NCBI RefSeq assembly: GCF_030812215.1
Contig: NZ_JAUSSG010000002.1
Coordinates: 248,001 to 312,000, forward strand
Direction of reading: 5' to 3'
Source of the DNA: Variovorax boronicumulans
GTDB taxonomy: Bacteria > Pseudomonadota > Gammaproteobacteria > Burkholderiales > Burkholderiaceae_C
Length of the DNA stretch: 64,000 nucleotides
This document shows, in pieces, positions 1,409-7,638 of this stretch (within the stretch, counting starts at the first letter, position 1; each line of letters opens with the position of its first letter). Under the pieces are notes generated by a model. The model did no database searches, was not told the origin of the DNA, and saw nothing but the letters and a program-made list of their open reading frames with translations. The position numbers were made by a program, and so were the translations under genes.

Positions 1409-1855
1409 ATGAAAGTCGGCATTCACGCCAGTCTCTGTAGCCCAGATATGTCTCGTATAGCCATCGCCCTGAGCTCTCCCTTCGCAGAGCTCAGTAAATG
1501 GCTCGAAGGCGAATATGGAGGGGTAATGGAGCACCTTTGGATTGACTTGGAGCTTTACAAGCACGGCGCCCGAGCTGATGGCGCGGACCGGTACCCCTTG
1601 CGGATGCAAAAACGAGTATCTGGCCGCTCCCGTTTTGGACTACCGTCGCTGCCTGACAAATTCAACGTGGGCCACTACAGCGTCAGGCCTAACTTTCGAC
1701 TCATTGCTCGGCTTCCGAAAGATGAAATCTTGCTGTACGTCTTCTCACTGCTTTACGTGTCGACGGTAGTGCTTGTCGACAATGAAAAGCTTGGCGGCTT
1801 TGATGCTGCAACATTTCGAGATCGGTTTCTCGAATGGGGCCGACGCTTTGCCTGA
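1409..1855 (+). CDS. small hypothetical protein, possible immunity-type protein
   Basis: About 148 residues from the ATG at 1409. An in-frame ATG at 1376 gives 159 residues and one at 1448 a shorter form; none has a clear ribosome binding site. No signal peptide or membrane segment is seen. The central part reads LPDKFNVGHYSVRPNF, then a hydrophobic stretch LLYVFSLLYVSTVVLV and a charged end. It resembles uncharacterised proteins I associate with toxin-immunity neighbourhoods, but this is only an impression. It follows the AT-rich membrane gene by about 75 bp. Confidence 0.5.
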   Translation: MKVGIHASLCSPDMSRIAIALSSPFAELSKWLEGEYGGVMEHLWIDLELYKHGARADGADRYPLRMQKRVSGRSRFGLPSLPDKFNVGHYSVRPNFRLIARLPKDEILLYVFSLLYVSTVVLVDNEKLGGFDAATFRDRFLEWGRRFA

Positions 1856-1869
1856 GGCCGATATCCACA

Positions 1870-2469
1870 TCAGCCCCGCTCGGAAGCGAAACCACCAGCC
1901 CCGTCCTTGGCACTTCGAAACAGGATCACAAGCCCCGAAATCAAAAAGTACACAGCCCCCACCGCCGCATACCCCGCAAACGTCTGCACCACAGGCGCCG
2001 CACTCCCCTGTTGCGCCACAAAAAACCCGCCAGCCAGCGCCGACTGCGCCCCGCTGAGCATCATCACCCACTGCCCTTTCTCGCTCTTGCGCCGACGAAT
2101 CGCCGTCGCCAGCTGAAGCAGCCCCGCAACGATCGCCCACGCCCCGAAGATCGCCAGAATGAGCTGCAGCTTGAGCCCCAGCGAAACCGCCACGGCCACG
2201 GTGACCAGCGCGCTCATCCAGACGTTCAGCATCTGCGTGGGGTTGGCCTTGGCGCCGCCGGTCATCCGGGCGTCCCACAGGTTGGCCAGCGCGTCCCATG
2301 CGGGATAGACGACGAGCAGCACGCTCGCCACGACGGGCGAGCCCTTGGCGACGGTGAAGGCGAGCGCGACCCACACAAAGGAAAAAGCCGCGCGAGTGAA
2401 GTAGAGCTTGCGCAGCCACGCGGCTCGTTGTTGAAGCGGTTGAAGTTGGGGCTGGTTGGTGTCTGGCAT
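1870..2469 (-). CDS. DUF308-like small integral membrane protein
   Basis: A 199-residue membrane protein starting MPDTNQPQ at the ATG at 2469. It has a short polar N-terminus, then about six hydrophobic segments, with R/K-rich loops such as AIRRRKSEKG after the fourth. Glycine-rich helices (AGLLQLATAI, AALAGGFFVAQQG) fit the HdeD/DUF308 group of small membrane proteins. A longer upstream extension in this frame runs through a polypurine tract read as poly-Phe and is rejected as non-coding. The gene is divergent from the HD-GYP/LuxR regulator at 2684. Confidence 0.75.
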   Translation of the reverse strand: MPDTNQPQLQPLQQRAAWLRKLYFTRAAFSFVWVALAFTVAKGSPVVASVLLVVYPAWDALANLWDARMTGGAKANPTQMLNVWMSALVTVAVAVSLGLKLQLILAIFGAWAIVAGLLQLATAIRRRKSEKGQWVMMLSGAQSALAGGFFVAQQGSAAPVVQTFAGYAAVGAVYFLISGLVILFRSAKDGAGGFASERG

Positions 2470-2496
2470 GGCAATGGCGGTCAAGGCCGCGAGATT

Positions 2497-2535
2497 GGGA
2501 AAAGAGAAGAAGAAAAAGAAAAAGAGGAAGAAAAA
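2497..2535 (+). repeat. polypurine tract
   Basis: An uninterrupted run of A and G of about 39 bases lies between the divergent starts at 2469 and 2684. Such tracts bend DNA or can form triplex structures. It may also influence the shared promoter region. No function can be assigned from sequence. Confidence 0.6.
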
Positions 2536-2683
2536 CTCGTCGCCCCTGGAGCGGAGCGGCTGCAGCCAATTCTGTTGACGCTGCCCCCGGCGCGGTATCG
2601 GTCGAATGACCGACAGGGGCCCGAAAAAACGGGCTGTGCGATGCTGTGCTTTTGCCCCCCTCCGCCCCGCCCCGCCCTCCGTG

Positions 2684-4210
2684 ATGCCAGACAACACCAC
2701 CACCATCGCCGTTTTCGACGCCATCCGCGCGCTCGCTTTCATCGGCGACCTGAGCATGGGCCAGCCGACCGACCATTCGCTGCGCACCGCGTGGCTCGCG
2801 GGAATGATCGCGACAGAGGCCCGCTGCGCCCCTTCGCAGGTCGAGGCCGCCCGGCATGTCGCGCTGCTGCGCTGGTCGGGCTGCACGGCCAATGCGCAGG
2901 AGTTCGCGGACTTCCTGGACGACGACGTGCAGGGCCGGCAAGCCATGCTTGCCTCGCAGAAGCCGCGCGCACCGCAACAGCAGCAACAACCACATCAGCA
3001 GCCGCGCAGCGCGGCGATACCGGGCGCGATGCTCAACATGGCCAGCATCCATTGCGAGATCGCCGGCGACATCGCGAACACGCTGGGCCTGCTCCCCGAC
3101 ACCGAAGCGGCGCTGCGTGCGATCTTCGAGACCTACGACGGCGGCGGCGTGCCGGGGCTGCTGCAAGGCGACGACGTGCCGCTCGCCACGTACGTGGTGG
3201 CGCTGGCGAGCGATCTCGAAATCTTCAGCCGCCTCTACGGGCTCGATGAAGCGCTCACGCTGGCCCGCGGGCGCGCGAACAGCGTGTACCCGGGCGCGCT
3301 GGTCGATGCCAGCACGCCCCACGTCGCGACGTGGATGAAAGCGCTCGATGCGCCCACCCCGCCGTGGACCGACGCGGCCGAGCAGCCGGCGTCGATGCTT
3401 CAGCGCGTCGGGCTGGAGCTGGTGGGCGACGTGATCGATCTCAAGCTGCCGTGGATGACGGGTTACTCCCGCCGCGTGGCCCAGCTGGCGCGCGACGGCA
3501 GCGCGCGCGCGGGCCTGGACGAGGCCCAGTGCCACCGCACGTACAAGGCCGGGCTGATCCACGGCATCGGGCGGGCGTCGGTGCCCAACGCGATCTGGAA
3601 CGCGCCGGAGCCGCTGCCGGCCTCTTCGCTGGAGCGGCTGCGGCTCGTGCCGTACTGGACCTCGCGTGCGGCCGGGCAAATCGACGGGCTCGCGGCCGAA
3701 GCGGAAATCGCCTCCTTCGCTTTCGAGCGGCGCGATGGCTCGGGTTACTTCCGCGGCCGGTCGGGCACGGCGATGCCGCCGGAGGCGCAGTTCGTCGCCG
3801 CGGCCGAGCGGTGGGTTTCTCTTCGCACGCGGCGTCCGTGGCGGGCGGAGTTCACCGAAGCCCAAGCGCTGGGCTGCATGAAGGAAGACGTCGAGGCGGG
3901 CCGCTTCGATCAGAACGTTGTCGATGCGCTGCTCGCCTGCGCGATGTCGCGTGCGCCTTCGAAATCCGCAGTGGCTCAGCAGCTGCAGCAGCTGCAGCAG
4001 CAACAGCAGCGCGGCGAGCAGTCGCTGTCGGAGCGCGAGCTGGAGGTGCTGCGCTGCATCAGCAAGGGCGAGAACACCAAGGAAGTCGCCCGCGCGCTGG
4101 GCATCAGCCCGCGCACGGTGCGAACGCATGTCGAGCGGGTGTTCCTCAAGCTCGAATGTTCGACGCGCGCGGCCGCGACGTTGAAGGCGGCGACCCGCGG
4201 GCTGATCTGA
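2684..4210 (+). CDS. HD-GYP-like (apparently catalytically dead) regulator with C-terminal LuxR HTH
   Basis: A 508-residue protein. Residues 10-210 and 240-420 read as two HD-type helical bundles, and residues 446-505 are a LuxR/GerE helix-turn-helix (LSERELEVLRCIS, then GISPRTVRTHVERVF). The second bundle aligns by eye with HD-GYP phosphodiesterases, yet the metal-ligand signatures are changed: GHS is GYS (260-262), HD is HG (293-294), HPY is VPY (322-324), and HHE is FAFE (345-348). DGSGY (351-355) is kept. Glutamine-rich linkers lie near 98-106 and 432-442. It probably senses something and controls transcription rather than cleaving cyclic-di-GMP. The start MPDNTTT is preferred to an upstream ATG at 2606, because the extra residues look unstructured. 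Confidence 0.85.
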   Translation: MPDNTTTIAVFDAIRALAFIGDLSMGQPTDHSLRTAWLAGMIATEARCAPSQVEAARHVALLRWSGCTANAQEFADFLDDDVQGRQAMLASQKPRAPQQQQQPHQQPRSAAIPGAMLNMASIHCEIAGDIANTLGLLPDTEAALRAIFETYDGGGVPGLLQGDDVPLATYVVALASDLEIFSRLYGLDEALTLARGRANSVYPGALVDASTPHVATWMKALDAPTPPWTDAAEQPASMLQRVGLELVGDVIDLKLPWMTGYSRRVAQLARDGSARAGLDEAQCHRTYKAGLIHGIGRASVPNAIWNAPEPLPASSLERLRLVPYWTSRAAGQIDGLAAEAEIASFAFERRDGSGYFRGRSGTAMPPEAQFVAAAERWVSLRTRRPWRAEFTEAQALGCMKEDVEAGRFDQNVVDALLACAMSRAPSKSAVAQQLQQLQQQQQRGEQSLSERELEVLRCISKGENTKEVARALGISPRTVRTHVERVFLKLECSTRAAATLKAATRGLI

Positions 4211-4447
4211 GTTGAGCGCGGGCTCCGGTCGATAGCGGAGCAAGCAGCCAGTGCGCGCCGTGGCGCCTCTGTTTTTTTCTTTCTGCAGCCAGTGCAACCA
4301 GGATGCGATTCGCGCCGGAGTCGAAAGACTTCGCAAGCGGAATCGCTGCCGCCCGGCCGCGCGCGCAAGCTTTCATCGTCACGAACCCTTCATGTCGGCA
4401 CTGAAGAATCGCGCCTTCAAACGACCTGAGTACAACCTGACCCAACG

Positions 4448-7071: not shown

Positions 7072-7638
7072 TTATTTCCTGACGCCCAATTCGGCGATCT
7101 CGGCGGCGACCGGGATGCCCAGCGCCTCAGTGAGGGCCATCCACGCGGCCCAATAGCCTGGAAATCCATCGCTGGCGCGCAGCGCCTTGTCGGCCTCTCG
7201 GCGCAGCTGCAGCTGCCACTCGTTCAGATGGCCCTTGTCGGCCGCCTTGTCGATCGTGCAGCGCAAGCCGTCGACGACGCCCGGCAAGGCGCGCATCGCC
7301 CGCTTCTTCATGATCTCGATGAGGCGACGCATGGCGATGCTGCGGGCCCAGGTCATGTCATCGGTGCATGCGATGCGCTTCACATAGGCTGCCAGGTCGG
7401 CCTCGGACGGATTCTCGATCTGGCCCAGGGCATGCAGCAACAGCCACAGCGCACGCACTTTGCGGGCCTCGGGCCGTGTGTCCTCTCGGCGGTCGTTGCC
7501 GGCAGGGCCTCCCGCTACCGGAACGCCCCGTGCGCCTTCGTCGCGGTCAGGCCCTTTTTCCGCGGTTTCGATAGAGCGCCGCGCCGCTGCGCCTCGGCGT
7601 TCAGGCCGAAAACCGAAGCGGAAAGTAATACTGCCCAT
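7072..7638 (-). CDS. protein with similarity to phage Mu gp16/GemA C-terminal region
   Basis: A 188-residue protein. The first 55 residues are basic and low in order. Residues 58-110 read KVRALWLLLHALGQIENPSEADLAAYVKR..., the pattern of the gp16 (GemA, DUF1018) family found in Mu-like phages, where it acts as a regulator. The usual N-terminal gp16 half is not recognisable. No other phage genes are nearby, so this may be a domesticated remnant or an unrelated protein. Downstream sequence is convergent with the VOC gene. Confidence 0.5.
   Translation of the reverse strand: MGSITFRFGFRPERRGAAARRSIETAEKGPDRDEGARGVPVAGGPAGNDRREDTRPEARKVRALWLLLHALGQIENPSEADLAAYVKRIACTDDMTWARSIAMRRLIEIMKKRAMRALPGVVDGLRCTIDKAADKGHLNEWQLQLRREADKALRASDGFPGYWAAWMALTEALGIPVAAEIAELGVRK

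Follow-up and report, generated by a model that had tools for sequence, protein, structure and literature searches.

The window, a 64,000-nucleotide stretch of the Variovorax boronicumulans genome, contains a 508-aa open reading frame without internal stop codons, which is divergent to a gene for a DUF308 protein (Table 1). An in-frame ATG at 2606, which automatic annotation could choose, would give a product longer by 26 aa. Because this codon lies within a conserved palindrome (2598-2613) and the annotated start of the V. paradoxus orthologue matches about residue 2 of the 508-aa protein, translation more likely begins at 2684. On the minus strand, an open frame of 863 aa (1745-4336) also covers the gene; it looks like a codon-bias by-product of GC-rich DNA.

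Table 1. Features of the regulator locus (window coordinates).
Feature	Position	Strand	Basis
Predicted pseudo-HD-GYP/LuxR one-component regulator, 508 aa, group A	2684..4210	+	ORF translation, Pfam, PDB sequence match, AlphaFold2 model
N-terminal HD-like module, residues 8-225, V-cGAP3-like	2705..3358	+	Weak phmmer stretch 17-81 to 5z7c; fold match over model residues 4-427
First Gln-rich run, about residues 95-109, within the first module; unconserved and modelled with low confidence	2966..3010	+	
Degenerate HD-GYP module, residues 240-425	3401..3958	+	PmGH ligand mapping; fold matches 9rbz, 4mcw, 4r8z
Second Gln-rich run, residues 432-442, unconserved linker to the HTH	3977..4009	+	
LuxR/GerE helix-turn-helix, residues 445-508	4016..4207	+	Pfam GerE, E 9.6e-18; fold matches
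Divergent DUF308 gene, predicted target; start codon 2469	1870..2469	-	Pfam DUF308, E 1.6e-7
Predicted -10 hexamer CAGAAT of the DUF308 promoter	2569..2574	-	Common offset of 39 from operator start
Predicted operator TCGGTCGAATGACCGA (TCGGTC-GAAT-GACCGA); minus strand, towards DUF308, TCGGTCATTCGACCGA	2598..2613	.	Comparative genomics

Pfam recognized HD_5 twice in the 508-aa protein (E 3.8e-30, best stretch 246-412), and a C-terminal GerE helix-turn-helix (HTH; PF00196, residues 446-501, 64 bits against a cut-off of 23.5), so that the attached DNA-binding domain of the original prediction is confirmed. The top sequence match in the PDB was V-cGAP3 (5z7c, E 1.6e-24), with a weak stretch at residues 17-81 and a strong one at 122-425. 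In an AlphaFold2 model made from 56 family members (the window protein and 55 named loci; mean pLDDT 88.9, pTM 0.89), 5z7c aligned with residues 4-427, which corresponds to tandem HD modules over about 420 residues; the first of these modules was absent from the original prediction. The HD-GYP fold is present in the model (Z 21.0 to 4mcw and 20.1 to 4r8z), and the DGxGYP loop is kept as DGSGYF, with only the last residue changed (GYP to GYF), in agreement with the retained DGSGY signature pointed out originally. Judging from the sequence matches and the model, the 508-aa protein is of the tandem HD-[HD-GYP] type and ends in a LuxR tail.

Two other identities were considered and rejected. The name of the best NCBIfam match, a NosR-family response regulator c-di-GMP phosphodiesterase, was dropped at 94.7 bits against a cut-off of 400, and a defence gene was rejected because the PADLOC matches were confined to residues 414-491, i.e., the HTH and the part preceding it. 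The Gln-rich linkers, once thought to suggest a flexible tether, did not live up to this reading. The runs occur in the window protein and a few close Variovorax relatives, and are shorter or missing in other aligned Variovorax; the median dN/dS of the two stretches is relaxed (0.45 and 0.53 among 17 Variovorax group-A genes), and a functional Gln tether was rejected on these grounds. In the model, the second run is predicted to be helical, and the first falls within the first HD module and is modelled with low confidence.

Loss of the metal site and its order relative to the fusion

The metal ligands of PmGH are E185, H189, H221, D222, H250, H276, H277, and D305 (PMC4159591). They align with W257, Y261, H293, G294, V322, A346, F347, and E375 of the window protein, respectively, so that seven of the eight positions are changed, the sole exception being His293 of the HD pair, while Glu375 is a conservative substitute for D305. 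Arg297 takes the place of the Lys of HDxxK, and Val378 that of PmGH D308. All four signature changes that had been read from the sequence (GHS to GYS, HD to HG, HPY to VPY, and HHE to FAFE) were found again in the translation and the alignment. The change at the E185 place means little, because Tyr or Phe is also found there in 28 of 29 intact LuxR-less relatives.

The family alignment proposed along with the original prediction shows that the ligand loss is conserved. Among 101 distinct degenerate rows, which include the window itself (L001), a contig-end fragment (L031), and L116 without an aligned HTH, one of the seven ligands other than E185 is kept in 95 rows, two in 5, and none in 1. A loss common to 101 distinct rows is no sequencing fault; that all ligands are lost is, on the other hand, partly true by definition because the rows were sorted by the ligand positions themselves, and the independent test is the single clade obtained with the ligand columns left out (see below). 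The replacements W257 (all 101 rows), R297 (100), G294 (99), V322 (93), and A346 (84) are nearly uniform, while positions 261 (Tyr 56, Phe 37, His 5), 347 (Tyr 62, Phe 24, Asp 11), and 375 (Val 37, Ala 28, Glu 20) are less uniform. Judging from the alignment, much of the replaced metal site is fixed and not drifting. The degenerate HD-GYP module is under purifying selection: the median dN/dS among the 17 Variovorax group-A genes is 0.17 for this module and 0.15 for the HTH, and the two parts of the first module have values of 0.15 and 0.21. A recent pseudogene was rejected in view of this selection and the conserved replacements. In L116, a Rhodoferax MAG, the HTH is found in another reading frame (about 7201-7450), probably due to an assembly frameshift.

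All 29 rows of relatives without a LuxR domain have intact H, HD, H, and HH, and 99 of the 101 degenerate rows have an aligned LuxR domain. There is also a small set of LuxR-fused relatives (L022, L147-L150, and L158 from Nocardioides sp. JS614) which have the same domain order as the window protein, but unlike it keep H189, HD, H250, and HH, the last Asp being Glu in L147-L150; L158 is annotated as "HD domain-containing phosphohydrolase." In trees for which both the ligand columns and the HTH were left out, and which were rooted on the LuxR-less proteins, the degenerate rows form one clade (100 by SH-aLRT with 36 of the 101 degenerate rows, and 100/100 with 16), and the intact LuxR-fused rows (six and five, respectively) branch just outside it, between the degenerate clade and the LuxR-less proteins. 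Under this rooting, a single fusion followed by a single loss is sufficient. Because intact LuxR-fused relatives lie outside the degenerate clade, the DNA-binding domain was probably gained before the metal site was lost, with the reservation that the intact rows are few and sit on long branches; in the 36-row tree, long branches meeting each other were flagged.

Gene neighborhood, predicted operator, and promoter geometry

The regulator gene is divergent to a DUF308 gene in all 30 Variovorax group-A loci (13 and 17, partly of the same species). Among 80 named loci from at least 14 genera, 65 have a DUF308 or α/β-hydrolase relative within the fetched stretch, mostly adjoining and divergent, and the remaining 15 have neither within that stretch. 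Pfam confirmed DUF308 and Abhydrolase_6 for the neighbor genes, whereas NCBIfam gave no match for DUF308 and only sub-cut-off matches for the hydrolase, for which one weak PDB relative was found. The genome of the window also carries a paralogue (C11:213835-215262, 51% identical) just downstream of an α/β-hydrolase gene. The intact LuxR-fused gene of Nocardioides (L158, 3067-6218) is located on a plasmid typed as conjugative and adjoins two α/β-hydrolase genes, and from this context hydrolases may have been linked to the regulator before the metal site was lost.

The distribution of the gene is patchy. It was matched at 1e-30 or better in 16 of 81 related genomes, 14 of which are Variovorax with the degenerate copy. 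Among 399 genomes of the order, 69 gave a match at 1e-15, and the match reached through the HTH in only eight, seven of them degenerate and one (G058, the source of L022) intact; this search scored three candidates per genome, and the gene may be missed among the 392 genomes counted as others. In one of these others (G375:C15:247814-248026), a 71-residue piece in a 117-aa open frame is 54% identical to the start of the first module; it is perhaps a remnant of the degenerate gene, and G375 has no exact operator. Among 12 plasmid records with a degenerate copy, one names the gene "helix-turn-helix domain-containing protein" and another "hypothetical protein," while the others have no annotated feature. 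Thus the degenerate family is nearly unlabelled in these plasmid records, and a count of HD domains alone would suggest a c-di-GMP enzyme.

The palindrome between the regulator and DUF308 genes occurs once in the 6.7-Mb genome. The pattern TCGGTCRAATGACCGA was found in 10 of 81 genomes, once each and always upstream of the regulator gene, i.e., in 10 of 13 group-A carriers versus none of 68 others (Fisher p 1.5e-10). The remaining three group-A carriers (L015, L016, and L017) have a version with one arm mismatch, and the reversed control pattern was found once in the 81 genomes (G069). In the larger set, the exact 17-mer is present in 5 of 399 genomes, namely four of the seven degenerate-gene carriers (all except G104, G317, and G345) versus 1 of 392 others (p 1.7e-7); the lone site in a non-carrier (G174) is inside a coding frame, with no regulator relative in the surrounding 2.2 kb.

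Of 97 non-B degenerate loci, many of which come from related species and are not independent, 85 have a site in the upstream 400 bp whose arms deviate at no more than two positions (none in 60, one in 18, and two in 7). Up to one mismatch, this is 78 of 97 loci versus 0.13% of letter-shuffled controls, and up to two, 85 of 97 versus 2.6%. Real 400-bp stretches elsewhere in L058-L137 gave 17 of 2076 with at most one mismatch and 78 of 2076 with at most two, where the excluded zone was set by the usual position of the gene, and in a few loci with the gene at another position the regulator upstream region is itself among the 2076 stretches; several of the 17 are further sites with the fixed -10 (described below) before other genes. 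No site with up to two mismatches was found within 400 bp in 12 of the 97 (L035, L036, L075, L077, L080, L084, L088, L101, L112, L121, L124, and L136), and five of these (L075, L088, L101, L112, and L124) have a site elsewhere in the locus, with an unusual centre in L075. Under the same limits no such site was found near the regulator in the intact LuxR-fused L022 and L147-L150, nor in 15 group-B loci. Several Paraburkholderia loci carry two or three operator copies (L101 at 3684, 3993, and 8166; L112 at 3109, 3918, and 8298; L083 at 5921 and 8307; L089 at 4901 and 5904). The genes following these copies include those for DUF308, cupin, cytochrome b561, a lactonase-like metallo-hydrolase, and a protein with a weak ExtJ match. 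Because several copies precede different genes, the regulon seems to be larger in some Paraburkholderia than in Variovorax.

The group-B hydrolase genes have an upstream site of another type, TCGGAC-ATTC-GTCCGA with variants, which is shared by 14 aligned loci. In the genome of the window, the site of the paralogue is the imperfect palindrome TAGGAC-ATTC-GTCCAA, which occurs once. When a pattern covering both types was allowed one mismatch, only two sites were found in this genome, the window site and C11:212894-212910, which precedes the hydrolase gene of the paralogue. In the recognition helix, A481 and L483 are found in the same 11 of 101 rows, all of the group-B type, while T481 is found in 87 rows and V483 in 83. 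The GGTC half-site goes with T481/V483, and GGAC with A481/L483; from this covariation, the half-site type goes with the recognition helix. The paralogue would most likely regulate its α/β-hydrolase gene in the same manner, via the GGAC instead of the GGTC half-site. Two paralogues with one predicted operator each, differing at residues 481 and 483, make a compact case of paralogue insulation.

Across the genomes compared, the palindrome is conserved and linked to the regulator gene, and it would provide the two-fold symmetric DNA target of a LuxR/GerE (NarL-type) transcription factor; direct gene control by the protein via a cognate predicted operator is strongly indicated. The original view of a sensor which evolved from a hydrolase and now controls genes directly is supported in part, as to the missing ligands, the conserved loss, and the predicted operator; a sensing role is presumptive, and the order of events needs correction, as discussed above.

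The position of the operator relative to the promoter is rigid. Of 75 distinct sites, 69 have a NANNNT hexamer on the target side at an offset of exactly 39 bases from the operator start; the sites were chosen blind to the -10, with the requirement that the centre read ATT towards the target and that the arms have no more than two mismatches to either half-site type. On the target side, the hexamer reached no more than 12% of sites at any other offset from 16 to 59, and on the opposite side no more than 16%. Of the six sites lacking the -10, five are without a recognized target (L023, L059, L110, L124, and L132). The genes behind the 75 sites encode α/β-hydrolases (31), DUF308 proteins (25), cytochrome b561 (8), proteins with a weak ExtJ match (2), cupins (2), or none of these (7). 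If the hexamer corresponds to -12 to -7, the operator extends from -51 to -36, with its centre at about -43.5, near -42, the position of class II activators at LuxR-type promoters. The site consensus includes no separate -35, and rigid spacing to the -10 without a separate -35 is the usual picture of an activator-dependent promoter. Because the operator is at the class II position, DUF308 is most likely under activation by this protein. An A/G-rich tract (2500-2545) is found in the predicted leader (5') of the DUF308 mRNA.

The pocket, alternative explanations, and the proposed switch

V-cGAP3, a 3'3'-cGAMP phosphodiesterase of Vibrio cholerae, is the best fold match to the model (Z 22.8, rmsd 4.0, 347 residues) and shares the tandem HD and HD-GYP modules, but it keeps GHS, HDIGK, HHE, and AD and its chain ends at the HD-GYP module, whereas the window protein has lost these residues and continues into the HTH. 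The second-best match is DvhD of Desulfovibrio vulgaris (9rbz; Z 22.6, rmsd 5.1, 196 residues), a degenerate HD-GYP protein which is reported to bind c-di-GMP without metal and not to hydrolyze it, and is a precedent for a metal-free HD-GYP receptor (PMC13090378). DvhD differs from the window protein in having PAS and periplasmic dCache domains, in controlling a protease, and in the residues that replace its ligands.

The DvhD contacts (PMC13090378) were mapped by the PDB sequence alignment with a numbering that fits all eight contact letters; E668, which lies where the alignment is gapped, has no assigned counterpart. Y523, L577, K582, Y621, M646, R650, and Y652 correspond to W257, L311, L316, Y355, L380, R384, and W386, respectively, and the guanine contacts R314 and K317 of PmGH (PMC4159591) to R384 and R387. 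The contacts L577, Y621, M646, R650, and Y652 mostly have conserved counterparts in this family: among 101 rows, W257 is found in 101, R384 in 98, R387 in 93, L380 in 88, L311 and W386 in 87 each, and Y355 in 83. K582 has no conserved counterpart, its position being Trp in 61 and Leu in 19 of the rows; Gly replaces W386 in 11 rows, namely ten group-B rows and L116, and Gln replaces R387 in 5 rows of group B. By these positions, the pocket is compatible with a nucleotide ligand in group A. Because the K582 position is unconserved and W386 is Gly in 11 rows, a single nucleotide ligand for all members is doubtful. A cyclic dinucleotide is a possible ligand and, with several nucleotide-contact positions still in place, the most conservative guess. 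The fuller proposal, in which an HD-GYP-derived receptor would have retained its substrate pocket but given up catalysis and would convert the level of c-di-GMP or 3'3'-cGAMP directly into transcription, with one operator per paralogue and a GGTC/GGAC switch preventing cross-talk between the control of a DUF308 gene and that of a hydrolase gene in one cell, we put forward tentatively, as a reading that has the odds against it.

A non-nucleotide signal acting through the same regulator and operator deserves serious thought, although we would not bet on it. The pocket would then be an aromatic one for an ester, lactone, or other compound removed by the controlled hydrolases. The metal ligands have been replaced mostly by W, Y/F, V, A, and Y/F, α/β-hydrolases are the most common product behind the sites described above, the target hydrolase of L089 has weak, below-cut-off matches to AiiA and 4-pyridoxolactonase, and the α/β-hydrolase neighbors of the intact L158 are in keeping with it as well. 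However, the conserved R384 and R387, equivalent to the guanine-contacting residues of PmGH, fit an anionic or guanine-like ligand. A further alternative is repression instead of activation: with the operator lying over the -35 region, the protein would block RNA polymerase at the divergent promoters, and a position of -51 to -36 would permit such occlusion too. We consider such repression rather unlikely in view of the rigid -10 spacing and the consensus lacking a separate -35.

It is very improbable that the protein is still an enzyme, acting without metal or with a metal site rebuilt from alternative residues: His293 and Asp252 are each kept in 99 of 101 rows, Glu348 is invariant in the alignment of the window protein with the 55 named loci, and RpfG is thought to retain a binuclear centre without two of the eight PmGH ligands (PMC4159591), but the seven altered positions led us to reject a rebuilt site, Ala at any PmGH ligand save E185 and D305 essentially abolished activity (PMC4159591), and DvhD, with changed HD and HH pairs, did not hydrolyze c-di-GMP with any ion added (PMC13090378). 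We likewise give hardly any credence to the palindrome being the site of another regulator, placed beside these genes by chance, since it co-occurs with the gene over 81 and 399 genomes, is present as one site per paralogue in the own genome, covaries with residues 481 and 483 of the recognition helix, and has the HD-LuxR gene as the common factor of loci with different targets.

Judging from the sequence comparisons taken together, we are fairly confident that the protein is a one-component transcription factor derived from a tandem HD-[HD-GYP] protein. Its second module is, by its sequence, a pseudoenzyme without a complete metal centre, and its C-terminal LuxR/GerE domain would bind TCGGTC-N4-GACCGA as a dimer. 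From about -51 to -36, it would most likely activate DUF308, and its own promoter may be affected too. A small molecule or a partner in the old substrate pocket would presumably set its activity. VpsT, a c-di-GMP-responsive LuxR-type regulator, likewise has a LuxR/GerE HTH driven by a second-messenger domain, as is proposed for the window protein, but this domain is receiver-like and not an HD-GYP pseudoenzyme. Among the literature matches listed, which covered few subscription papers, there was no description of this family or of a transcription factor built on an HD-GYP pseudoenzyme.

The protein is very probably a switch for its neighboring gene, acting via a specific DNA sequence. In this family, the loss of catalysis can be ordered relative to the fusion with a DNA-binding domain, and the prediction of operator, target, and spacing goes down to the single base. 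The gene is found in Variovorax and many related soil bacteria, in which the predicted operator can be read from the genomes alone. Should the pocket bind a cyclic dinucleotide, the protein would be an HD-GYP pseudoenzyme turned transcription factor.
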